From positions 1,945,056-2,009,055 of the forward strand of contig NZ_AP026830.1 of assembly GCF_026000775.1 (NCBI RefSeq): DNA of 64,000 nt, in the 5' to 3' direction. The notes under the pieces are model-generated. The model worked only from the letters and a program-made list of their open reading frames with translations. It was not told the origin of the DNA and did no database searches. Of this stretch, positions 48,759 to 63,492 are shown piece after piece; positions within the stretch are counted from its first letter, which is position 1, and each line of letters opens with the position of its first letter. The position numbers were made by a program, and so were the translations under genes. This DNA is from Vulcanisaeta souniana JCM 11219 (GTDB lineage: Archaea > Thermoproteota > Thermoprotei > Thermoproteales > Thermocladiaceae).

Positions 48759-49139
48759 TTATGGTTCATCACCTCCCTCTATTTCCTCCTTTTCGTTAAT
48801 GCCCATTATCCTCATAACTTCCCTAATAAGGTCCCACTTCTTTTCAAGTTTATCACTAATGAAGTATGGTGCACCATAACCAATATCTAACCTACTAACA
48901 AGTTCATATCTCTCAAGGAGCTCAAGATGGTACATTATTGTTCTATAGTTTACGTTTAATGCCTTAGCCAATTGATTAGGGTTCATTGGTTTTTTCTTAA
49001 GTATTAGCAGGATCTTTAGTCTCATTAAACCTCCACGTGAGCCACCGAGCAACCAAATAAGTATTTTCCTTAGATCCTTCTCATACTCAACCATTAGATA
49101 CGTAGCATTACCTGACAATGATTTATAAGTTTTAAGCAT
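48759..49139 (-). CDS. Winged-helix transcriptional regulator
   Basis: A 126-residue protein with a winged-helix domain of the ArsR-like type at about residues 35-100: 'GLMRLKILLILKKKPMNPNQLAKAL' then recognition helix 'NVNYRTIMYHLELLERYELV' and wing 'DIGYGAPYFISD'. It lacks metal-binding cysteines. The acidic C-terminus (EKEEIEGGDEP) is unusual. It is upstream of, and co-directional with, the small membrane gene. Confidence 0.75.
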   Translation of the reverse strand: MLKTYKSLSGNATYLMVEYEKDLRKILIWLLGGSRGGLMRLKILLILKKKPMNPNQLAKALNVNYRTIMYHLELLERYELVSRLDIGYGAPYFISDKLEKKWDLIREVMRIMGINEKEEIEGGDEP

Positions 49140-51048: not shown

Positions 51049-52392
51049 CTAGACATAGCTCCTAACCCCCTTCATACCCGATGCGTTCTCAAGCATCTTC
51101 TTAGCCGTATAGTATCTCCTACAGTCTGGGCATAGATACAACCATTCAGGGTCACCCTTAATGCCAAGTCTAACCTTCGTAGCCATTATGTGCCTCCTGG
51201 TATCAAATGGCTTACCACATACCTTGCATGTAATCACCTTGTCATAAACAATATCTGCGCTACCACTTGTCGGAAATTCCTTAGCCCTATCAACTGCTAT
51301 TGCCTTCTCTGGGCATAGCCTTGAGCAATAACCACACCCAATGCACTTGAGGTTGTTGAATTTGAGCACGGTCTTATTACCAGCCCTATCAACATCGAAT
51401 GCCCTCTCGGGGCATTTAGCGAAGCATACACCACAGAATGAGCACTTGACATCATCAACATGCACACTAAATATCTTCAGTAATTCATTGGTAACGCCTG
51501 TAGCCTTTGATCTAAGTCTTGTTAATGCCTTAACATAGTCATTACGTCTAATGCCCATGTAAATAATTTCCTCACTTGGTGCCTTGTTACCATCCACTGA
51601 TAACGCACCATTCTCAGCGGCGCTGAGCTTGAACAATTCCATAAACGCATTGACTAAGTCCTTGACATAGTCAGCACCACCCAACTTACATGACTTATCA
51701 GGGCACTCAATACTTACCTCAAGGGACTTGACAAGCGCCATTGCCACCCATTCAGGTCCAACTGCATTAACACATGGCACTTTATAGATGTACTCGCCGT
51801 TCCTAGGTTCCCTGGTGTTTAATGGGCATGTGAATGTTACTTTCTTAATACTCTTCACGGTATTTAACTTATTAAGTAGGGCTACGTACTCATTATCGTC
51901 AGCGCCCACCATTGCCAGGGCACCTGTTGGGCATTTTGACACGCACAACCCACACTCAATGCATGTGCTCTCATTAATGGTGACTTTATTGTTGACTATG
52001 GATATAGCGTTTACTGGGCATGCATTAACGCATTCACTACAGCCAAACCTAGCCCTACATGCACTCTCGAGGTATGTGGGTACGTTCTTCTCGATAACCT
52101 TGGCAACCCTACCCATCAGTAGCTCCCTCCTACTGATGGGACCCTCGATGGCAACCTTCCTCATGCTCGTTCTCCTAGCCATTAACTGAGCCTTCAACGT
52201 CTCAAGCTCCTCTTCGCTTGGCGACTTAAGTATATAAATGCTCATTGGATGCTTACCCTGAATATCAACACTGTTCAATTTCCTGAGCACTATTATTACT
52301 GGGCCATCATGCTCTCTAGCCCTACTCAATTCCTCGTCATTTGGATCCTCAAGTATTAATAACCTGCCCTCCTCACTTACCACCATAGGCAT
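51049..52392 (-). CDS. Polyferredoxin, SreD-like
   Basis: A 447-residue protein with four ferredoxin-type motifs: 'CSECVNACPVNAISI' and 'CIECGLCVSKCPTGAL' (about 120-165), then 'CSFCGVCFAKCPERAF' and 'CIGCGYCSRLCPEKAI' (about 320-365). A C-terminal zinc-ribbon-like 'CKVCGKPF...CPDC' follows, and a middle region holds four more cysteines (TFTCPL, IECPDKSCK). Its start overlaps the TorD-type gene by 20 bp. Gene order matches the polyferredoxin of Acidianus sre operons, where its role is thought to be electron transfer or enzyme maturation. Confidence 0.75.
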   Translation of the reverse strand: MPMVVSEEGRLLILEDPNDEELSRAREHDGPVIIVLRKLNSVDIQGKHPMSIYILKSPSEEELETLKAQLMARRTSMRKVAIEGPISRRELLMGRVAKVIEKNVPTYLESACRARFGCSECVNACPVNAISIVNNKVTINESTCIECGLCVSKCPTGALAMVGADDNEYVALLNKLNTVKSIKKVTFTCPLNTREPRNGEYIYKVPCVNAVGPEWVAMALVKSLEVSIECPDKSCKLGGADYVKDLVNAFMELFKLSAAENGALSVDGNKAPSEEIIYMGIRRNDYVKALTRLRSKATGVTNELLKIFSVHVDDVKCSFCGVCFAKCPERAFDVDRAGNKTVLKFNNLKCIGCGYCSRLCPEKAIAVDRAKEFPTSGSADIVYDKVITCKVCGKPFDTRRHIMATKVRLGIKGDPEWLYLCPDCRRYYTAKKMLENASGMKGVRSYV

Positions 52393-53047
52393 CCCTCATA
52401 GCCTTAATGACCTCCTTGTCCTGAGCCACGAAATCCCTCGTAAAATTGAGCAGAAGTTTAAGGTAATCAGTCTTCACAAGCTTAAGTGATGTACTTACGA
52501 ATATCGAGACCCAATTAATTAGGTGATTATTTAGGAAGTAATCCTCTTCCTCAACATACTTAATGGCATTACTCCAGTCATCATACTCCTCATAAGCTAG
52601 GAAACTCATGAAGGCGAACTCAACGGCAATGTGATCACCCCTTAAATCCCTAAAGTCCTTATTCACGATAAGGTTATAATCCGCGTAAATTCTTTTAAGC
52701 GATATCTCGGTATTCATATCAAGATAACCCGTGTGGGTGTATCCCTCGTATGGTATTGCGCCATAGTCAATCCTTGTAAAATCCACTTGTATTGGTGTTA
52801 ATGCGTTGTAGTCATTAATACCTTTAGCAATATCAAGTAACTTAATTAGGTCATTCATTGATGAGTAAAGCCTTGCCAGGACCTTGGCGACACCCCTAAC
52901 CCTACTAATCCTCGATTTAATCAACTTCTCAAAATCATTAAGCCTATACGGGTATATGTAGGATGAGGCTAGGAAGTCATAAATAATAGAACGGGAAAAG
53001 GCAAGTGATTTTAAAGCCTGTGGATCTAAGTTCTCCATATTAATCAC
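52373..53047 (-). CDS. TorD-type molybdoenzyme chaperone, SreE-like
   Basis: A 224-residue all-helical protein with the TorD/DmsD layout: 'RSIIYDFLASSYIYPYRLNDF', 'PIQVDFTRIDYGAIPYEGYTHT' (the family's P-Y-E motif) and 'GDHIAVEFAFMSFLAYEEYD' (the D-H-x-x-x-E-x-x-F-M motif). It should bind the TAT signal of the catalytic subunit and hold it for cofactor loading. It overlaps the Fe-S gene by 4 bp. Confidence 0.85.
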   Translation of the reverse strand: MINMENLDPQALKSLAFSRSIIYDFLASSYIYPYRLNDFEKLIKSRISRVRGVAKVLARLYSSMNDLIKLLDIAKGINDYNALTPIQVDFTRIDYGAIPYEGYTHTGYLDMNTEISLKRIYADYNLIVNKDFRDLRGDHIAVEFAFMSFLAYEEYDDWSNAIKYVEEEDYFLNNHLINWVSIFVSTSLKLVKTDYLKLLLNFTRDFVAQDKEVIKAMRDAYGGK

Positions 53048-53835
53048 GTGCCTTGACCCTTAGCATTACCCACTCCACCACCACAGTGACCACCAGTTGG
53101 TTTAACGCCCTTCAGCTTCTGTAATAATGTCGGTAAATCAGCCGCGCCAGTTCTTAGGGCAAATTCCTCAGGTTCTTCTCCGGTTACTATCCTTGTCGAT
53201 TCGTTAGTCTGTACACCGGGCATTACATAAAGACTGGGTGGGTCTGTGCCGTACTCAGGACCCATTGGTACTGCGCCCTTTCTCATAGCTGTCCTGTAGA
53301 CTATGCTATTGGGATCATCCATGTCACCAAATACCCTAGCACCGGCCGGACAATTCCTAACGCAGGGTGGTACTCTCTCGTAAAGCGGTAATGACTCATC
53401 GTAAACTCTATCAATGGCCATGACACACTTCTTACTAACGCCCTCCACTGGGTCAAATATTATGTTGCCATATGGACATGCATTCTCACAGTACCTGCAG
53501 CCAATGCACACCTCGTAGTTAATAACGACCACACCATCCTCTCTCCTCTTATATATGGCCCCGGTTGGACATACTGTGACACATGCTGGATTCTTACATT
53601 GGAAACAGCTAATTGGTACACTAAATGTCTTAGTGTTTGGGAACTCACCAACCTCCACATGCAGTACCCTCATGAAGAATACCGACCATGGCGCCTTACC
53701 GGGTTCTGGACCCCATGGCTTCAGATCTGTCATTGGCCCATAACACCCACTGGAGTGCCACTCCTTGCAGGCCAGCATACATGCGTTGCATCCAAAGCAC
53801 TTACTCAGGTCTGTGAGTATGGCTAGCTGGACCAT
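53044..53835 (-). CDS. Molybdoenzyme Fe-S subunit (DmsB/PsrB/SreB type)
   Basis: A 263-residue protein with the sixteen-cysteine, four [4Fe-4S] cluster pattern: 'CFGCNACMLACKEWH', 'CFQCKNPACVTVCPTGAIYK', 'CIGCRYCENACPYGNIIF' and 'KCVMAIDRV...PPCVRNCPAGA'. It carries electrons between the membrane anchor and the molybdopterin subunit. A Gly-rich tail with 'GGHCGGGVG' is an extra Cys-containing end. It lies 5 bp after the catalytic gene. Confidence 0.92.
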   Translation of the reverse strand: MVQLAILTDLSKCFGCNACMLACKEWHSSGCYGPMTDLKPWGPEPGKAPWSVFFMRVLHVEVGEFPNTKTFSVPISCFQCKNPACVTVCPTGAIYKRREDGVVVINYEVCIGCRYCENACPYGNIIFDPVEGVSKKCVMAIDRVYDESLPLYERVPPCVRNCPAGARVFGDMDDPNSIVYRTAMRKGAVPMGPEYGTDPPSLYVMPGVQTNESTRIVTGEEPEEFALRTGAADLPTLLQKLKGVKPTGGHCGGGVGNAKGQGT

Positions 53836-53840
53836 TCAGG

Positions 53841-56800
53841 TCACCCCTGCCCGTTCTTCTTACTCTTTGGATCCGTACCTGGATTTGAATTAGGTGGTGG
53901 CATTGTGGCGTTGGAGAATGAGTAGCCCATTGAGTGCCTAATGGTTTCTTGGAATTGAAGCCATTGAGTGTTCTGTTCATACCAGGATAATCCCATCTCC
54001 TGCGGCGTCTTGTAGGCATTATAGTTGAAGACATTTATGTTCCAAGCCTCACTACCAACGATTAGTTTCGGTGGTGTCTTAACTATTGGATCTGCATTAC
54101 CCCATGCTGAGTATGGCTGGTCATTAGCTATCCTAACTACCTTAACCCTTAAATCACCCCAAGCAGTCTTGCCACTAAATATGTCGAATTGAAGTGTTGG
54201 ATATTGTCCGCTTTGTACCGCATTTATTAAACCCTGTACTGTATAGTCTGAGTTAGGTACACCACCCTGGCTTTGAGCCCTTGTGTATACGTATATGTCA
54301 TTAAACATAAAGCCCTTAGTAACCTCCAGGGCATTAGGCGGTAATGCCATCATACCGGCTCTGGCATTCCTTGACTTCCAATAACCAACAACACCTGGTG
54401 CCACAGCTTCCGTTAACTTAACCTGGCCTCTAGCTATCTCGCCGCCTCTACTGGTTAATTCAACCCAATCACCATCCTTAATACCATACTGAGCCGCAGT
54501 TTGTGGATTCATCCAAATCACCGAATATGGTATAATCTGCCTAAGCCATGGGTGGTGATTCTCCCACGTGTGGTAGAACCACGGCGTAGTCTTCCTATTA
54601 ATCGTGGCCAGTGGGTACTCACTTGGTGGTGAACCATCTGGTGCTATCCAGTCCAGTGGTTCGTACCATACGGCTATTGGGTGGTAGAACTGCTTAATTA
54701 TTTGGGCCACATGGCTGCCCCACCAATCACTTGGTGGCGATGCGTTCTTCTGGGCCAGCTGTAGATACGACTGGTCGCCAGTCTTCTGGTACATGTAGTA
54801 GAAGTATGCGTTCATGCCCTTCCACAGGCCGTAGGCTGCCAGTATGAACTTCATTATTATCTCTGAGTATATCGGTATAATCACTGGCTTTGCGTATGGC
54901 ATCATACTAACGCTTGCAGCCCACTCCAGATAGCCTTGGTTCACGTGCCTGTAATACCTAATCTCAAGTGGTAATTCGTAGTAGGCGAAGGCATGTCCAA
55001 CTGTCTGAGTACCTGGTGAAACACCTAGCGGATAAACACCATTGGTAACTGGTATCTGCTGTGGAGCTGGGTACGTATTACTATTTGAGTATGCGGCTGC
55101 ATTTATGAAGCCTGGATAAACGTACATCTTAATCTGATTCGGGTTAGGATCTCCCTTACAACATGATGCTCCATCCGCACCCCTAGCCATGTAAAGCACA
55201 CCAATACCTGGAGCAAACTGCCACTTCCACAACCAATCATACATTAGATTAGGATACATTGGTTCTCCAGTATTTGTAACGAAGCCAGGTAACTGAAGCT
55301 TCTCACCGAGTAAAATCTCACCATCACTCCACGGCCTAACTTCCTTAAAGAGCGGCGGTAGTATAGGCCACTCGATATTGTCCGCAGGACCGTGCACCGA
55401 TGACACTGGCCTATCTAGTAGACTGTGCTCACCATATCTCTCAAAGAATGTGGTGTCAGGTATAACTAAGTCTACACAGGGCACTGAACCGCCATAGAAC
55501 GTATCAACCTGAGCCACGAAGGGTATCCTATACCTACCATCAGTATCCTTCATAGTGAGCAGGCCTAGGTCCTTATCAATATCGTAGGCATTATCCCAAT
55601 ACTCATTGGTTATATGCCATAGCAGAAACTCTACTCTGTACGGCCACTCAAGCCCAGCATCAATATTAACAGCGGTATAAACCCTATGAACAGATAATGG
55701 AAACTCCCAACTAAAGCCCCTCTCTATGAGCAATGGATGACCATTTTCATCAATTACCATATTATCCGGCGTATATACTATAGGCTTTGTCGTTATTTGC
55801 AAAGCCTTTGAATATGGAACCTTCTCAACACTTAATACCTGAACAGTACCATCGTTAAGTATTCTCTCCTGAATCATCGTACCACCAACTACACCTATAA
55901 GTTGCTCGCCATTGGGTCCAGTGTATAGGCTTGGATTAGAGTTGTAATCGTCCTGTGTAATATTCATCCTTGGATCAGCTGGCGTAATATATGCTGGCCA
56001 GTAATCGCCGTCAGGTACTGGCCACGGTGCTGGCGGCTTATATGTAAATCCACCAGGTGTATCTATCGCCCCAACTAAGGCGAATAGAAGGGCAAAGGCT
56101 CTTGCTGTGACAAAGCCATTACTATGTGCCGAAATGCCTCTCATTATGTATGCTGAGAATGGTGTGCCTATGAAATAATCATGCTGCCTACCTAGGTAGT
56201 CAGTCCACTTGGCTTGTATAACGACCCTACCATTATTGAGCAAATTAACTATCTTCTGAGCAAGCTCCCTAATTTTGTAAGCTGGTGGTGTTTTCCAGGT
56301 CGCCTCAACATTCTCTGGACTCCATTGATCTTGCAGCGCAATTTCCTTTAGTATACTGAAGACAGTTCTAACATTTAGAGTTACTGTCTGGTCACTATCA
56401 GGAGCGATTGGTATTGTTATTGATCCCTGCCACTCAAGGACGGGTTCAACACCGTTTTGCCACGGTATGTCAGTAAATGGGTAAATATTACCATCGCTAC
56501 CCATAATTATTGGTACCCAATCACCATTCTTATTCTTCATCCTAGCGAAAAGCCCAACATTAGATGCTTGTGGTGGTATTATCGAACCGTCTGGATTTGT
56601 TATGACAAGCCAGGGCGCGTTTGTATACCACTTTAAGTAATCCTCATCCATTGAGTGTATACCCTGCTCCCTCATTTCAAATAGTTCATGTATTACTGAC
56701 CAAATCACCATGCCATCAGTACCGGGTATCACGGGTATCCACTCATTGGCAACTTGGGCGAAGTTGCCGATTCTCTCCGGCGACATCCATATTATCTCAC

Positions 56801-57623
56801 CACCATTGGTTATCACCTTCATAACCTCACGTCTCGTTATTGTTGGAAAATGATCCTGCGTCATACCAGCGATAATCAATAACTTCGTGTAATTGCTGTC
56901 CCAACCACCGTACTCCCACCAGGTGCCACCCATGGCATAAGAACCACCTGACGCCACGGCCGTTGCACAGAAACCACCGTGAGCTGCTTGGTTCGGTGTA
57001 CCGAACATCGCAGCAAACCACGTGTTCTCGGTTGGATTGTATTGATCCCTACCTGTGAAGTATACGAACTTATATGGGCAGCACTCCCTAATTTGCTTAA
57101 GACCTAGGAACCCATATTTCCAGCCTCTTTCCTGTAAATAAGATGAATTATCTCCATTTGCAAGTATGTCTAGCAGATCATCGTATGTAATTTCCACGAA
57201 GTTACCCTCACACCTCTCGCTAGTGGGTACCCTAAGCAATGGCGACCTTAGCCTTGCTGGGCTTAGGTAGTGGAGCATAGTTGTTGCGCCTATATCACAG
57301 GTGGCACCCTGGTTCCTAGTGAATATTGAACCCGTTATGAACCTAGGTAGTTTAGTCGTTCCACTTATTACAACCTCAACATTGCATCTACCTAGGCATC
57401 CGTAGCATGTCGTGAACGCAACAACGTCGCTCGTTACCTCCTCAGGAGCCAACTTACTCTCCTTAAATATCTGACCAAAAACAAATGCTTCCCTACCCAC
57501 AGTACCTAGGAATGCCACTGCTGCAGCCGTTACACCGGCGATCTTTAGGAAATCCCTTCTTGTTATTAATAGGCCCTTCTTAGTCTCCTCATGGGTAAGC
57601 TTTGTGGTGGTTTCCATGCCCAT
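53841..57623 (-). CDS. Molybdopterin oxidoreductase catalytic subunit (SreA/PsrA/TtrA-like), TAT-exported
   Basis: About 1260 residues. The twin-arginine signal is 'TRRDFLKIAGVTAAAVAFLG' (Arg22-Arg23). The N-terminal [4Fe-4S] site is CYGCLGRC plus a later Cys in 'GATCDIG' (Cys73, 76, 80, 109). The Mo-ligand region reads 'TPNQAAHGGFCATAVASGG', giving a cysteine ligand as in Psr/Phs/Ttr enzymes. The C-terminal MGD-binding domain includes 'TAAQYGIKDGDWVELTSRGG' and 'EAVAPGVVGYWKSRNA'. Its length is at the upper end, nearer tetrathionate reductases. Gene order favours sulfur/polysulfide reductase (Sre). The ATG at 57623 overlaps the anchor gene's stop (TGATG), so I prefer it to an in-frame ATG at 57644. 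Confidence 0.87.
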   Translation of the reverse strand: MGMETTTKLTHEETKKGLLITRRDFLKIAGVTAAAVAFLGTVGREAFVFGQIFKESKLAPEEVTSDVVAFTTCYGCLGRCNVEVVISGTTKLPRFITGSIFTRNQGATCDIGATTMLHYLSPARLRSPLLRVPTSERCEGNFVEITYDDLLDILANGDNSSYLQERGWKYGFLGLKQIRECCPYKFVYFTGRDQYNPTENTWFAAMFGTPNQAAHGGFCATAVASGGSYAMGGTWWEYGGWDSNYTKLLIIAGMTQDHFPTITRREVMKVITNGGEIIWMSPERIGNFAQVANEWIPVIPGTDGMVIWSVIHELFEMREQGIHSMDEDYLKWYTNAPWLVITNPDGSIIPPQASNVGLFARMKNKNGDWVPIIMGSDGNIYPFTDIPWQNGVEPVLEWQGSITIPIAPDSDQTVTLNVRTVFSILKEIALQDQWSPENVEATWKTPPAYKIRELAQKIVNLLNNGRVVIQAKWTDYLGRQHDYFIGTPFSAYIMRGISAHSNGFVTARAFALLFALVGAIDTPGGFTYKPPAPWPVPDGDYWPAYITPADPRMNITQDDYNSNPSLYTGPNGEQLIGVVGGTMIQERILNDGTVQVLSVEKVPYSKALQITTKPIVYTPDNMVIDENGHPLLIERGFSWEFPLSVHRVYTAVNIDAGLEWPYRVEFLLWHITNEYWDNAYDIDKDLGLLTMKDTDGRYRIPFVAQVDTFYGGSVPCVDLVIPDTTFFERYGEHSLLDRPVSSVHGPADNIEWPILPPLFKEVRPWSDGEILLGEKLQLPGFVTNTGEPMYPNLMYDWLWKWQFAPGIGVLYMARGADGASCCKGDPNPNQIKMYVYPGFINAAAYSNSNTYPAPQQIPVTNGVYPLGVSPGTQTVGHAFAYYELPLEIRYYRHVNQGYLEWAASVSMMPYAKPVIIPIYSEIIMKFILAAYGLWKGMNAYFYYMYQKTGDQSYLQLAQKNASPPSDWWGSHVAQIIKQFYHPIAVWYEPLDWIAPDGSPPSEYPLATINRKTTPWFYHTWENHHPWLRQIIPYSVIWMNPQTAAQYGIKDGDWVELTSRGGEIARGQVKLTEAVAPGVVGYWKSRNARAGMMALPPNALEVTKGFMFNDIYVYTRAQSQGGVPNSDYTVQGLINAVQSGQYPTLQFDIFSGKTAWGDLRVKVVRIANDQPYSAWGNADPIVKTPPKLIVGSEAWNINVFNYNAYKTPQEMGLSWYEQNTQWLQFQETIRHSMGYSFSNATMPPPNSNPGTDPKSKKNGQG

Positions 57624-58672
57624 CACCCCCACCATGGACCCCATTGTGGTTGTGTGTTATAGAATGGTGTTATTGGTGTATGGAAATAGGCCGTGGCTAT
57701 GACTACATACCTCAGCGTATAACCACCAACTATAACTGCAACAAATATTATTGCTATCATTACGGCCGCAGTGCGGTTTAACGGATTAACCCTCAATAGT
57801 GCTATTTCAAGTAATAATGGTATTGCTATACCTATGGAAATAACCACACCCCAAAACATCGGTGCATATGCGCCGAATAAAAGCTCGTAGAGATCCAGCC
57901 CAGCTAGGTAGTGATTCGCCATGGCCACGGCTATGAATAACGCCCAACCAAATCCTTCAAAAATCTCCGCAAGTAGGTCCAGCCAACTTAATTCATGCAG
58001 TACATGAGCTAATTCACTTGTGCCTCCATCAGCCTTCACAGGTACTGCCGTTGTTACAGACTTCTCGAAGAATCTGGTAACCAGCAGTGAAAATGCGGAG
58101 CCATAGGCAAGGCCTGATGATAGCCATAGCAGGGGCAGTACGCCATTCCACCAGTAGGACTTGCCACCAGCTGCTGCGAATAGGAATGCTGTGTATACCG
58201 TAGCCGCTATACCCGTGAGCATTATTAAGTAGTCAAGGACTATCTGCGTGGGCCTAATATACTTACCCAGCACAGCCCTCGCCAGTGATGGTATGTAGGT
58301 TATTGCCAGGTATATTATGCCCCAAATAACCATACCACTTAGGAACAACACACCCCAATCCATCCAGGACTGAGCAAGTCTACCATTTGGATAGCCAATG
58401 AAAATTATGTTACCAGCCCTATCCGGCCTTCCAAGATCTATTACGAAGAAGGCCAAGGCACCCAATATAAATATCCAACCAGCCGTCATATTTATCTTAA
58501 CCATCCTACTAACCTTACCCCTAACATTATAAACAGCGGCTAGCAACATTGTCATGCTACCGAGCGCCGTTAGGAAAACCGCAGCCGCAATTCTCCAACC
58601 CCATATCAAGTGATAACCAGGCGGCATGTATGGACCCCAGCCTGTCCAGCTAACCGGCCAAGGTGATGACAT
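57623..58672 (-). CDS. NrfD/PsrC-type membrane anchor (SreC-like)
   Basis: A 349-residue protein with eight to nine helices: 'GWRIAAAVFLTALGSMTMLLAA', 'GWIFILGALAFFVIDLGRPDRA' (typical NrfD 'DLGRP'), 'WGVLFLSGMVIWGIIYLAI' and 'LLAEIFEGFGWALFIAVAMANHYLAGLD'. It should bind menaquinone and pass electrons to the Fe-S subunit on the cell exterior. It is the first gene of the operon, with two TATA-like repeats 24-58 bp upstream. Confidence 0.88.
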   Translation of the reverse strand: MSSPWPVSWTGWGPYMPPGYHLIWGWRIAAAVFLTALGSMTMLLAAVYNVRGKVSRMVKINMTAGWIFILGALAFFVIDLGRPDRAGNIIFIGYPNGRLAQSWMDWGVLFLSGMVIWGIIYLAITYIPSLARAVLGKYIRPTQIVLDYLIMLTGIAATVYTAFLFAAAGGKSYWWNGVLPLLWLSSGLAYGSAFSLLVTRFFEKSVTTAVPVKADGGTSELAHVLHELSWLDLLAEIFEGFGWALFIAVAMANHYLAGLDLYELLFGAYAPMFWGVVISIGIAIPLLLEIALLRVNPLNRTAAVMIAIIFVAVIVGGYTLRYVVIATAYFHTPITPFYNTQPQWGPWWG

Positions 58673-58756: not shown

Positions 58757-59548
58757 TTACTTATTTTCATATAAGTGAAAAATTTTGAGTAAATTGCCCT
58801 TGTTCATTATGGACGTGAGCACTGGGCAGTTTAAACGTAATGCGTAACCATTGATCCTGCACTTAATGGCTACCGGCCTTACGACAGGCTTTCCCGCACT
58901 CTCCTCTATTAGTAATGCGGCCTTACACCCGTCATTTAGGGTAACCACTGGTAGTAATTCAAGTAGTGCCTTGGCGATTACCCTCTCGGCTTTCCTAACG
59001 AGCTCCAGGGGTACGTTTAAGGTCTCCGCAATTACTTGGTCTAGGGACTTCGTGCCTATCCTTAGATTGTCAGGGAGCAGAACTAGGGCAGTCCTACTTA
59101 AGTTGCTGGCGCAGAAATCCTCAATCTTCCTACCCAGCCTAATCAATCCCTTAATTAACAATGAGATGTATTCCTTAACTTCATCGTCACTGAAATCCTC
59201 TAATTCCCAATCTTCTTTCAATTTCATAATTGCATACTTAAAAGCGACTTCGTTAATTTTGATAGCGCCAGTTAAATAAGCGACCGATAGCAGAAGGGCG
59301 CCTCTAGCCGTAACCACGTACTGCCCCTTATTAACCTTCTCAACAAAACCCATTGATAGAAGTTCTAACATCTTTCTATAAATTGACGCTATGCTTAACC
59401 CAGTTACCTTGGATAAGTACGTTAATGACAATGTATTGATACCTTTTTGCATTAAGGCTAATTGAAACATCGAGACGATGAGAGTTTCAAGAATAAGTAT
59501 ATGAATTGAATCTAGCGAATCTTCCCTAACTAATAAATGAGGCATCAT
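58757..59548 (-). CDS. Winged-helix regulator with three-Cys C-terminal signature, copy 1
   Basis: A 263-residue protein. An N-terminal helix pair precedes a winged helix at about 38-80 (YLSKVTGLSIASIYRKMLELLSMGFVEK) with wing 'KGQYVVTARG'. A middle helical domain (LKEDWELEDFSDDEVKEYISLL) follows, then a C-terminal region with 'AERVIAKALLELLP', 'LNDGCKAALLI', 'AIKCRINGYALRLNCPVL'. It has about 35-40% visible identity with the next gene, with the three cysteines conserved. It lies between the sre-type operon and its paralogue. It could sense redox state, metals or sulfur species; no named family recognised. Confidence 0.75.
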   Translation of the reverse strand: MMPHLLVREDSLDSIHILILETLIVSMFQLALMQKGINTLSLTYLSKVTGLSIASIYRKMLELLSMGFVEKVNKGQYVVTARGALLLSVAYLTGAIKINEVAFKYAIMKLKEDWELEDFSDDEVKEYISLLIKGLIRLGRKIEDFCASNLSRTALVLLPDNLRIGTKSLDQVIAETLNVPLELVRKAERVIAKALLELLPVVTLNDGCKAALLIEESAGKPVVRPVAIKCRINGYALRLNCPVLTSIMNKGNLLKIFHLYENK

Positions 59549-59607
59549 TATTAATAATTTTAAATCATGATTTAGTATTAAAGTGTTTTGGGAGTATGCT
59601 AAGATTC

Positions 59608-60357
59608 TTACTCGTTAAATGCCTTATGAATTAATGATAAGGCTACAGGGCAGTCACTATTAAGCGAATAGCCCCTAATCCTACATTTAATGGCGAGTAT
59701 TACCGGCGAGGCCCTAATCGACTGGTCCCCAGCCAATACAACCACTGCCCTGCAACCATCCCTTAAACGGACACTTGGTAGGTAATCAAGTAGTGCCTTG
59801 GCGATTACCCTCTCGGCTTGTCTCACCTCATCGACACTCACACCCAGGTAATCAGCTATTGAGTGAATTAGGGAGATCCTACCGTTATTAATGCCGTCAG
59901 GTAATACGTAATAAACAGACTTACCAAGCAAATTAACATTGACGTTTAATGGCGAGAGACCCAACTTACTAAATCCTTTATATAGTAATTTTAAGTAACT
60001 AATTACCTCATTACGATCAAATTCCTCAAGGTCCCAATCTTCCCTCAACTTATCAATGGCCAACTCAAAGACATCCTTATTTATGGAACCCCCATTACTT
60101 AGGTACATCATTGCAAGTAGTAACACGCCCTTAGTGGTTATTACGTAATGACCCTTACTAACCCGCTCTATCAAGCCAAGATTCATCAGGTCAAGAGCCT
60201 TCCTATATGCCGTAGCTATACTCATACCCGTACTCATCGAAACATAGTAAAGAGAATCCAAATTCCTGCTACAACGCCTTACCTTACCCTTAATGAGATG
60301 AAGAAGGAGTGCCTGAAGTATTAGTATGTGGTAATTATCTAGGTAGTAAATACTCAT
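59608..60357 (-). CDS. Winged-helix regulator with three-Cys C-terminal signature, copy 2
   Basis: A 249-residue paralogue of the preceding gene: winged helix 'MSTGMSIATAYRKALDLMNLGLIERV', 'KGHYVITTKGVLLLAMMYLS', 'LREDWDLEEFDRNEVISYLK', then 'AERVIAKALLDYLP', 'LRDGCRAVVVL' and 'AIKCRIRGYSLNSDCPVA'. It has extra Cys near residue 28 (RRCSRN). It is the first gene on its strand after the A+T-rich region upstream of doxD, and a tandem duplication best explains the pair. I infer it controls dox and/or sre genes. Confidence 0.75.
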   Translation of the reverse strand: MSIYYLDNYHILILQALLLHLIKGKVRRCSRNLDSLYYVSMSTGMSIATAYRKALDLMNLGLIERVSKGHYVITTKGVLLLAMMYLSNGGSINKDVFELAIDKLREDWDLEEFDRNEVISYLKLLYKGFSKLGLSPLNVNVNLLGKSVYYVLPDGINNGRISLIHSIADYLGVSVDEVRQAERVIAKALLDYLPSVRLRDGCRAVVVLAGDQSIRASPVILAIKCRIRGYSLNSDCPVALSLIHKAFNE

Positions 60358-60507
60358 ATTAAATCACCTAGAAAATAACATAAATGTACTATTTTTAACC
60401 TTTATTGTCAAAAAAATGACACTACAAACGTAGAAAACATGCAAAAGTGAATGCTGGAATCTAGAGCAGAAAGTGTAACTTTTCGATAAGTTAATAATTT
60501 ATGATTT

Positions 60508-60565
60508 ATGGAAAAACATGCATTAATATAGTAATAAATTTGTTTAAATACTCATGGTTTTTCAT
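60508..60565. promoter_or_regulatory. Inverted repeat in the regulator-doxD intergenic region
   Basis: ATGGAAAAACATG (60508-60520) and CATGGTTTTTCAT (60553-60565) form a 13-bp inverted repeat with 11 matches, separated by 32 bp containing TTTAAATA. The repeat lies in a 298-bp, very A+T-rich divergent promoter region. It is a good candidate operator for the adjacent regulators. Confidence 0.45.
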
Positions 60566-60655
60566 GATATCTTATACAATGTATATTTTCATTTTTCTCA
60601 GTATCTAGAAACTAATCCTTAATAGAACAATATCTTTGCGGTATTCTCGATAAAT

Positions 60656-61204
60656 ATGACAGAAATAGTCAAATATATGGAAAAGACTGTGGAGGTATCT
60701 AGTGTTGAGAGGTTCTTGCCTATACTGAGGGTTACGTTGGGTTGGATGTACTTCTCTGCGTTCCTGAGGAGAACTGTTAATGTGCCTGCAAAGCTTAACC
60801 CATCATCCACTGCGTATGTTGGTGGTAAGTTGATAACGTTCTTGCCACATGCGTGGCAACCTGTTGTTGGGCAGCTTGAGTGGGTATTGCTACATCCGCA
60901 CCTGCTTTACATATTCCTACTCTTCTTCACGGCTGTCGAGGGGATATTTGGCTTATTAATGATTCTTGGCTTCATGACGAGGCTCTCCGGGCTCGTAATA
61001 ACCATACTAGCCTGGAGCATTGGGGCTGCTGGTGGTTGGTTGGGGCCAACGTGTGTTGATGAGTGGCAGATCGCGGCTGTTGAGGGTGCTGCCGCGTTGA
61101 TGTTCATGTTTACAGGTAGTAGGTGGTTATCAATTGATCAGTACCTGGCTAAGAAGTATCCAAGGGGCTTAAGGATATGGAGTGTGTACGTACCACTATG
61201 GTGA
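60656..61204 (+). CDS. doxD: Thiosulfate:quinone oxidoreductase large subunit (DoxD)
   Basis: A 182-residue membrane protein with four helices in DoxD order: '[20 protein letters not shown]', then after an external loop '[26 protein letters not shown]', '[21 protein letters not shown]' and '[18 protein letters not shown]'. 'GPTCVDEWQ' carries the conserved external Cys. With DoxA it oxidises thiosulfate to tetrathionate and reduces caldariella- or menaquinone. It is divergent from the regulator pair. Confidence 0.88.
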
Positions 61205-61208
61205 GGTG

Positions 61209-61721
61209 ATGAGTATGGATAGGACAACTGCACTTGCACTGTTGGGCTTCATAATCGCCACTGGAGTAACGATGGGTCTATACCAAATAAACTTTCAGGG
61301 ATTCACCCACCTAACCAACTACTCAAAGACGCCTGCCTACTCACTGGCTGGTACTCAATTACTTGAGAATGGTACATTAATACTACACATCACTAGGGTG
61401 GCGGGTCCGGACACATACGGTGGATTCATAGTACTCGTACAGGTACTTTACCCAAATGGTACCATAGCTTATGAATGGAACTCAACATACTTAGGTCACA
61501 TACCCCAATACGACATTATAAACGAGTACGACCTGCCAGGGCATTTAGTGCACTCCGACGGCTTCGCCCTCGTGGTACCACTGGGCCAGTCTGCCATTGT
61601 TAAGTTATACGCACCAACAACATTCAGCCCAGGCACCTACATTGTCAGAGTTTACGATGTTGACGGGCAATACGAGGCGTACGGAATTAAGTTCCAGATA
61701 TACGTAACAGTCGGTGGGTAA
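61209..61721 (+). CDS. doxA: Thiosulfate:quinone oxidoreductase small subunit (DoxA)
   Basis: About 170 residues: one N-terminal membrane helix (ALALLGFIIATGVTMGLYQI), then an extracellular beta-sandwich with 'LILHITRVAGPDTYGGFIVL', 'DGFALVVPLGQSAIVKLYAP' and 'GTYIVRVYDVDGQYEAYG', as in DoxA. A GAGGTG element directly before the ATG at 61209 and the 4-bp gap after doxD support this start over an in-frame one at 61182. The two genes are one operon; in Acidianus the same pair forms the enzyme. Confidence 0.87.
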   Translation: MSMDRTTALALLGFIIATGVTMGLYQINFQGFTHLTNYSKTPAYSLAGTQLLENGTLILHITRVAGPDTYGGFIVLVQVLYPNGTIAYEWNSTYLGHIPQYDIINEYDLPGHLVHSDGFALVVPLGQSAIVKLYAPTTFSPGTYIVRVYDVDGQYEAYGIKFQIYVTVGG

Positions 61722-62317: not shown

Positions 62318-63492
62318 TCATTGTTCATTGCGGGGGCGTTTAGGGGTGACCCGAGCACCTCCCACATACGCGTGCAGTGCCCTTAGCCAAATGTTTGTTG
62401 CGCCAACTACGTCTCTATCGCCTATGAATCCGCATCTTAGGCAGTATGCTAGTCTGTGAATGTAGTTAAGTCTCGCCCCGCACATTGGGCAGACGTTAGA
62501 CGTGTCCCTGGGATCCACGAATACCACCGGCACATTGTACTCAACGGCCTTGGCTATGACTGCATGTTGAAGTCTCCTATAGGCGAATAGCGTTAGCTTC
62601 CACCTAACGCCACCATCTTTCTTATTAATCGAATCCCTCAAAGCTCTAAATCCTCCAGGACAATCGCATGCCTAAGCCTCAGCGCCTTTAGGACTATTTC
62701 CTTCGCCACCTTCCAGCAGAAGTCATTAATGATGTTCCTAGCACTCCCATGCAGTGCCCTAACCCTATTCAGAATCCTCCTATTGAATTTCCACCTCCTT
62801 GGGTACTTCCTCTGAAGCTCCTCAGCCCTAGCCCTCTTACTCAAAGCCTCGATGAACCTAGTCCCGAACCTCCTAACCTCAGAGCCATTGAATGTTGTAA
62901 TGTTCCTAAGGTTTACATCTATGGCTACGAATCCTTTAGGTGTATATGGCTGATACCTTAATTCAAACACTACGCTAACGTAGAGCTTCCTATTCTCGTA
63001 CTTTACGTGAACCTCCTTCCACCTCAATCCCTTAAACTTTCCAATATATTCTCTTCCGTGTTTGAGCTTCAGCACATACCATTTATCTCTCAGAATTATC
63101 TTTACGGTTCCTTTATCCATCTCCGCCCTGGCATCCTGATAGTCGAACCTAGCTGATAGCCTTCTAACCCTTGGCTTACCACCACCATTGCTTCTGGCTG
63201 ATTTAACCAGAGCCAGTGCGTATTGGTAGATGTTCCTAGTGACATGAGCCCTAAAGCCGTACTTCCTCAGCATTAGGTAAAACATTTGATGGAGTTGGCT
63301 CCTCCTTGGTAGTTCATCCAAGTCCCACAGGGCGTCAATCACCTTTTGTAGTGCATGCCTATGAATGGCTAAATCCCACAGCAAGTCATTAATACTTCCT
63401 TCGGCAACTTCAACCTCAGCCCTCAACGCCTTGTAGTACCTCCCCTCGGGCATCCGCCACGCGCGGCGGATAAACACCCCCATCGGGCTCAC
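62318..63492 (-). pseudogene. tnpB: IS200/IS605-type TnpB split by one frameshift
   Basis: Two minus-strand frames overlap at 62638-62641. The first (to 62638) holds RuvC-I Asp192 in 'GFVAIDVNLRNITTF' and ends at RuvC-II 'IVLEDL' (Glu280). The second begins 'LRDSINKK' and has the zinc finger CPMC...CLRC and RuvC-III Asp in 'GDRDVVGATNIW'. All three catalytic acids survive, so a single shift near 62640 is the only visible lesion. The combined length of about 390 residues is normal for archaeal TnpB. No tnpA is present. A second Met at position 14 of the first frame may be the true start. Confidence 0.85.

Follow-up and report, generated by a model that had tools for sequence, protein, structure and literature searches.

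Gene content of the locus

The window, that is the whole stretch of 64,000 nucleotides analysed here (Vulcanisaeta souniana JCM 11219, contig NZ_AP026830.1, positions 1,945,056 to 2,009,055 of the forward strand), carries two neighbouring regulator genes on its minus strand, RegB (59608-60357, 249 aa) and RegA (58757-59548, 263 aa). A first-pass annotation of the sequence had proposed these two open reading frames as a pair of related regulators, and they are homologous, with 47% identity across 217 residues (E 3e-62, pairwise alignment). Both have the same order of domains, an N-terminal winged helix, a helical middle domain and a C-terminal cysteine domain. The features described as shared in that annotation, the winged helix, the stretch LKEDWELE/LREDWDLE and the signature 'DGC...IKCRIxGY...CPV', are all found in the two proteins. 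The middle domain also contains a tryptophan, W114, which is invariant in the regulator family and has conserved neighbouring residues.

RegB is the first gene of an operon that continues on the minus strand after RegA. It encodes an NrfD-type membrane subunit (57623-58672; Pfam: PF03916, E 2e-26), a molybdopterin oxidoreductase catalytic subunit of 1267 aa with a TAT signal (53841-57644; Pfam: PF01568), an Fe-S electron-transfer subunit (53044-53835; Fer4_11, E 6.5e-20), a NarJ/TorD-type chaperone (52373-53047; Pfam: PF02613, E 1.9e-11) and a polyferredoxin with several Fer4 domains (51049-52392). Divergent from RegB, on the plus strand, are doxD and doxA (60656-61721; Pfam: PF04173, E 1.1e-56 and PF07680, E 3.1e-40), which encode the subunits of thiosulfate:quinone oxidoreductase. 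The neighbouring genes, previously noticed as sulfur redox genes, also include one conserved molybdoenzyme (Mo) operon headed by RegB and RegA.

The catalytic subunit carries a molybdopterin dinucleotide-binding domain. Its closest solved relative is a thiosulfate reductase (PDB: 2vpw, E 1e-14), and the PhsA, DmsA and TtrA models match it partially, far below their curated cut-offs. By this resemblance the Mo enzyme would be of the sulfur-oxyanion or polysulfide type. A characterised sulfur reductase of Acidianus is SreABCDE (PMC8551704). The window protein belongs to a clade of PhsA/TtrA-like molybdoenzymes of great length (1240-1460 aa) that is common to Thermoproteales and Sulfolobales (a second example is L061:11438-15742).

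Two further parts of the window are recorded as side observations. At the far end of the cluster lies an ArsR-type HTH protein (48759-49139, minus strand; Pfam: PF01022, E 2.3e-7), which adjoins a protein of 480 aa whose two halves resemble each other. Overlapping ORFs of 284 and 107 aa at 62318-63492 (minus strand) look by eye like the gene of a TnpB-type transposon protein, apparently split by a frameshift.

Family assignment

Pfam and NCBIfam searches with the whole RegA and RegB proteins returned weak winged-helix matches only, below the cut-off. The middle and C-terminal parts (RegA residues 97-263, 58760-59260; RegB 59611-60087, the same domain by alignment; both minus strand) matched nothing in Pfam even at E 5, which agrees with the earlier statement that no named family with this signature is known. 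A profile of the family gave weak matches throughout when compared with solved structures, mainly within the winged helix.

The closest candidates among known families were rejected. RegA reaches 20 bits against the TrmB family (Pfam: PF01978), with a gathering cut-off of 25.6, and RegB is not listed among the Pfam matches. Against the IclR family (Pfam: PF09339) the scores are 16.5 and 13 bits with a cut-off of 22, and the IclR effector domain is unmatched (Pfam, NCBIfam). Weak PADLOC matches to the winged helices of CARF, Csa3 and CasR proteins cover the winged helix alone. We searched the open-access literature and found no description of the regulator family there. We assign RegA and RegB to a family of one-component transcription factors that is unnamed in the libraries searched; the sensing chemistry discussed below is a proposal.

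Distribution and linkage to the Mo operon

We surveyed 300 genomes of the phylum. Close relatives of the regulators occur in the order to which the window belongs (Vulcanisaeta, Caldivirga and Thermoproteus groups) and in one further family, f27, which we equated with Sulfolobales from its cluster content and in which the homologues are mostly shorter (206-252 aa). A profile search of contigs with a narrower alignment returned five named loci from Vulcanisaeta, Thermoproteus and Caldivirga.

At every intact enzyme locus examined the regulator adjoins the NrfD subunit and/or the 1240-1460-aa molybdopterin subunit, and these loci usually also hold genes for the Fe-S subunit, the chaperone and ferredoxin. 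The catalytic subunit is present in 25 genomes of the sample, 23 of which have a close relative of the regulator. One of the 25 (G244) has a diverged regulator beside NrfD and another (G165) has an enzyme match that is a 567-aa remnant only, so that a regulator lies close by in 24 of 24 intact enzyme operons. Among the 147 genomes of the Sulfolobales-like order, the enzyme is found in 17 and the regulator (E<1e-50) in those same 17, a count that ignores kinship. None of the 130 genomes without the enzyme holds the regulator at a comparable score, again without regard to shared ancestry; two further genomes of this order match it at about 1e-11 to 1e-12 only. The regulator family is firmly tied to one sulfur-type molybdoenzyme operon.

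Regulator and enzyme have also been lost together. The Vulcanisaeta genome G117 keeps doxDA and the Fe-S, chaperone and ferredoxin genes and has lost regB, regA and nrfD together with nearly the whole catalytic gene. The scar (L044:8404-8574) encodes the first ~22 residues of RegB; a different frame gives the C-terminal end of the Mo subunit, WLQFQETIRHSMGYSFSN. Since it joins the start of RegB to the C-terminal code of the Mo subunit, a single deletion took all of these genes. Separately, the copy at the RegA position in another genome (G141, L008:630-1434) is split into ORFs of 131 and 109 aa and is apparently a decayed second regulator.

Besides RegA and RegB, the V. souniana genome contains a third copy of the regulator (L034:6954-7628), which lies inside a sulfate-reduction island with genes for ATP sulfurylase, a CbiA/GATase (DsrN-like) protein, sulfite reductase and DsrM- and DsrK-like proteins, and with an aprA-like gene identified by eye. 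A tree separates the RegB, island and permease clades of the regulator. In the permease clade the regulator gene is followed by an APC-type permease gene (L046:7380-8087, L050:3257-3964, L053:7870-8631 and L102:7452-8171).

A more distant sister family of regulators is found in the same kind of dsr/apr/sat islands (L034:4026-4856, L035:5278-6069, L101:6002-6697 and L085:1429-2355). At full length it is homologous to the RegA/RegB family with a probability of 98.9% (E 1.7e-17), and the C-terminal part alone reaches 74.5% (E 2.7e-5).

Conserved cysteines and predicted structure

The first-pass annotation had pointed to three cysteines kept between the tandem copies. They are kept far beyond this pair: C208, C230 and C241 (numbering of family cysteines follows RegA throughout) are invariant in the alignment of 21 of 21 Mo-operon regulators, which span two orders. 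To these we add a fourth and nearly invariant cysteine, C146, which is at least 90% conserved among the same 21 proteins. In the window the RegA codons, all on the minus strand, are 59111-59113 (C146), 58925-58927 (C208), 58859-58861 (C230) and 58826-58828 (C241). RegB has C202, C225 and C236 and has lost the equivalent of C146.

Across the wider family of 37 members, comprising the Mo-operon, island and permease clades, C208 and C230 are invariant (37/37), so homologues do not commonly lack them, and they stay so although the identity within the family drops to 20%. C241 is conserved in 31 of 37 and is absent solely from six dsr-island members, whose proteins end just upstream of its position. 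C146 (24/37) occurs throughout the Mo-operon members apart from the RegB clade and is absent from the island and permease clades. All four cysteines occur together in 24 of the 37 members; the RegB and APC clades carry three and the dsr clade two. A distant clade adjoining dsrN-like genes (L081-L083) is without C208 and C230.

AlphaFold models were built with 37 family sequences. RegA was modelled confidently, with a pLDDT of 89.0 and a pTM of 0.87 (AF2), and residues 97-263 alone with 89.1 and 0.86. The model predicts a hairpin of the strands 209-217 and 220-230, with C208 at the start of the first strand and C230 at the end of the second, hence both at its open end, while C241 opens the helix 242-249 that follows the hairpin. 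In this secondary structure the two cysteines bound a single short hairpin, one at each end, which would put them next to each other. Their spacing in the alignment varies from 14 to 23 residues depending on the clade while both cysteines are retained, which also fits spatial adjacency. The winged helix of RegA resembles MarR/DtxR-type structures (Z up to 9.5). For the isolated C-terminal domain a search of the PDB found no significant match (Foldseek best E 0.44, Z at most 2.2). This result is consistent with a new fold, of which a missing match is no proof. EnfR, which we considered as a recently reported archaeal regulator fold (PMC10570040), is by its description a shorter protein with a different layout.

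The first-pass annotation had suggested an Fe-S, zinc or persulfide sensor, a reading that the analysis supports in part. The four cysteines might form a structural or sensory zinc or Fe-S site, so that the proteins would respond to metal, cluster loss or oxygen. We consider this a serious possibility that falls short of an even chance. It would suit the 24 members with all four cysteines, for which a metal site is a strong rival chemistry, and it draws on the sister family, in which an invariant C-x2-C-x5-C-x4-C motif (spacing from its first sequence) lies near the C-terminus. This is typical metal-site spacing, and the first and last cysteines of the motif align with C230 and C241, so that the two families have these positions in common. 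The motif gives the best indication that the region of C208, C230 and C241 may be an ancient site for a metal or for thiol chemistry. That some clades have only two or three of these cysteines speaks against a single four-cysteine metal site on which every member would depend, and the model resembles no solved metal-binding domain, a search which by its nature cannot exclude one. Across the entire family, C208 and C230 alone among the cysteines are retained in every member, which slightly favours a dithiol or persulfide bridge linking these two. C208 and C230 at the base of the hairpin would be the core of the sensor, and C241 and C146 would assist it in the majority of members.

Cysteines can also serve the stability of proteins in hyperthermophiles. 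The cysteine domain could accordingly be mainly structural or serve dimerisation, with another ligand bound through the middle helical domain, where W114 and its neighbours are conserved, or with constitutive action of the regulators. The invariance of C208 and C230 down to 20% identity and the consistent association of the regulators with sulfur loci make this unlikely.

Candidate operator

The intergenic region between RegB and doxD (60358-60655), which had been suspected to hold the target of the regulators, contains a conserved palindrome, TGTCA-N6-TGACA (TGTCAAAAAAATGACA, 60406-60421), 48 bp upstream of RegB, that we regard as a candidate operator. The exact palindrome is present as a single copy in the 2.43-Mb genome. 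A BRE/TATA-like sequence, GGTTAAAAATA (60390-60400, minus strand), begins 6 bp past its TGAC, and the same sequence with the same spacing occurs in G153 of the Caldivirga group. In three lineages from two genera, GGTTAAAAATA or GGTTATAAATT lies exactly 6 bp past GTCA-N6-TGAC. With its candidate operator just upstream of BRE/TATA, the RegB promoter has an activator-like arrangement.

All five diverged lineages tested from family f1 carry GTCA-N6-TGAC upstream of the regulator, where it has been kept at the regulator promoter while the flanking sequence diverged. As a control we used 1000 first-order-Markov shuffles, none of which equalled this best dyad (5/5). Across the genome, GTCA-N6-TGAC shows no enrichment (28 copies versus 39 for the reversed control), hence the specificity of the site rests on its position and conservation. 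In the regulator promoters of the Thermoproteus group and of Sulfolobales the palindrome was not found and no dyad recurs above the shuffles. For the APC clade, the dyad GGATT-N6-AATCC (3/5) was reached by 45 of 1000 shuffles and is unconvincing.

Related sites lie at other genes. Of six genomes with closely related sequences, five carry TCTCA-N6-TGAGA (at most one mismatch) at the promoter of the island paralogue, and the spacer length is unchanged. In dsr islands, GTCA-N6-TGAC is located between TATA and the start codon of genes for a TauE/SafE-type exporter and an H+-ATPase (L034:9361-9374 and L103:13753-13766), which is a repressor-like placement. It also stands before TATA-like sequences in front of a lipoamide-dehydrogenase-like gene, in two genomes, and of an operon of a sulfur-transport gene (Pfam: PF04143) and TauE in G129, where the palindrome is the exact TGTCA-N6-TGACA (L182:2480-2495). 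As a separate observation, G000 (L179:1112-3487) has an SQR-like gene, a DUF1641 gene and two ThiS-like genes, and GTCAAATTTTTGAC overlaps the first ThiS-like gene at its start, as it does in G086.

The palindromes persist in G117, which is without RegA and RegB, so the protein that binds them may be a paralogue or an unrelated regulator. The palindrome could then belong to the ArsR-type protein at 48759-49139 or to the dsr paralogue, and RegA and RegB would act elsewhere; its occurrence at dsr-island genes points the same way. At the Mo operon, in contrast, every f1 lineage with the regulator has the palindrome directly upstream of the regulator's promoter, and we therefore judge binding by another protein to be improbable. 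Binding of the palindrome by dimers of RegA or RegB is the likely alternative.

Proposed function

Our main reading is that RegA and RegB are autoregulated one-component sulfur/redox regulators of the adjacent Mo operon that sense through their cysteine domain, and we assign this reading a probability of roughly 0.6. Their winged helix would bind TGTCA-N6-TGACA beside their own promoter, the cysteine domain would sense reactive sulfur or the thiol-redox state, and the operon would be switched in response. Placed beside one kind of sulfur enzyme and equipped with an unusual cysteine-bearing tail, the regulators probably turn the adjoining enzyme on or off when the sulfur chemistry changes. The parts of this reading differ in strength. 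Control of the Mo operon is very likely and sensing through the cysteines is favoured by a fair degree, whereas the chances are about even that the signal is a sulfur species rather than oxygen or a metal.

More tentatively, the C-terminal domain might be an undescribed sensor fold, and the superfamily with its Mo-operon, dsr-island and C-x2-C-x5-C-x4-C branches might also provide the main one-component sulfur signalling of dissimilatory sulfur metabolism in Thermoproteota, with related palindromes as operators at the genes for enzymes, sulfur transporters and exporters. We would bet against this combined proposal, if not heavily.

Comparison with known regulators

To our knowledge, the control of dissimilatory sulfur enzymes has hardly been described in Thermoproteota, and the regulators MsvR and SurR operate in other archaea. 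With a defined regulator family and its probable enzyme target, together with the candidate operator and the four cysteines, the question can be tested on the two proteins in purified form and a single DNA fragment. The 1240-1460-aa molybdoenzymes of Thermoproteales and Sulfolobales also emerge as an uncharacterised clade with its own dedicated regulator.

The redox switch of SurR is a CxxC motif. SurR, a two-cysteine protein of the ArsR family, is the sulfur-response regulator of Thermococcales; it controls sulfur and hydrogen electron-flow genes, and elemental sulfur oxidises its cysteines (PMC9426492). Like SurR, RegA and RegB are archaeal one-component regulators, and the cysteine control known for SurR is what we propose for them. 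Unlike in SurR, their cysteines sit in a separate C-terminal domain. SurR-type membership was rejected, as Pfam gave no ArsR-family match and the RegA cysteines 146, 208, 230 and 241 form no CxxC.

OxsR of Haloferax is a thiol regulator of the TrmB family with a palindromic motif 5' of BRE/TATA (PMC9426492). The winged helix of RegA is weakly related to TrmB by profile, and the palindrome is 5' of BRE/TATA in both systems. OxsR is a single winged-helix domain, whereas the C-terminal cysteine domain is found in RegA and RegB only. Sulfur-oxidation genes in bacteria are controlled by the CsoR-family protein TTHA1953 (PMC10318464) and the tetrathionate pathway of A. caldus, with its thiosulfate:quinol oxidoreductase, by the two-component system RsrS-RsrR (PMC5093147). 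Both belong to protein families unrelated to RegA and RegB.

MsvR is a redox regulator of methanogens with a V4R domain. In M. acetivorans it has three conserved C-terminal cysteines, C206, C232 and C240, and it autoregulates through the inverted repeat TTCGTA-N4-TACGAA (PMC3729527). Common to MsvR and RegA/RegB are thus an archaeal HTH protein beside redox genes, conserved C-terminal cysteines and an inverted repeat. The cysteine spacing of MsvR prompted a comparison with 15 V4R domains (Pfam: PF02830) by hhalign, which gave a probability of 0.1%, and no V4R match was found in the V. souniana genome. The two systems differ in the sensor, which is V4R in MsvR, in the operator and in the target, an oxidative-stress operon versus a molybdoenzyme. 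By analogy, RegA and RegB would work most like MsvR and SurR, and they are members of neither family.
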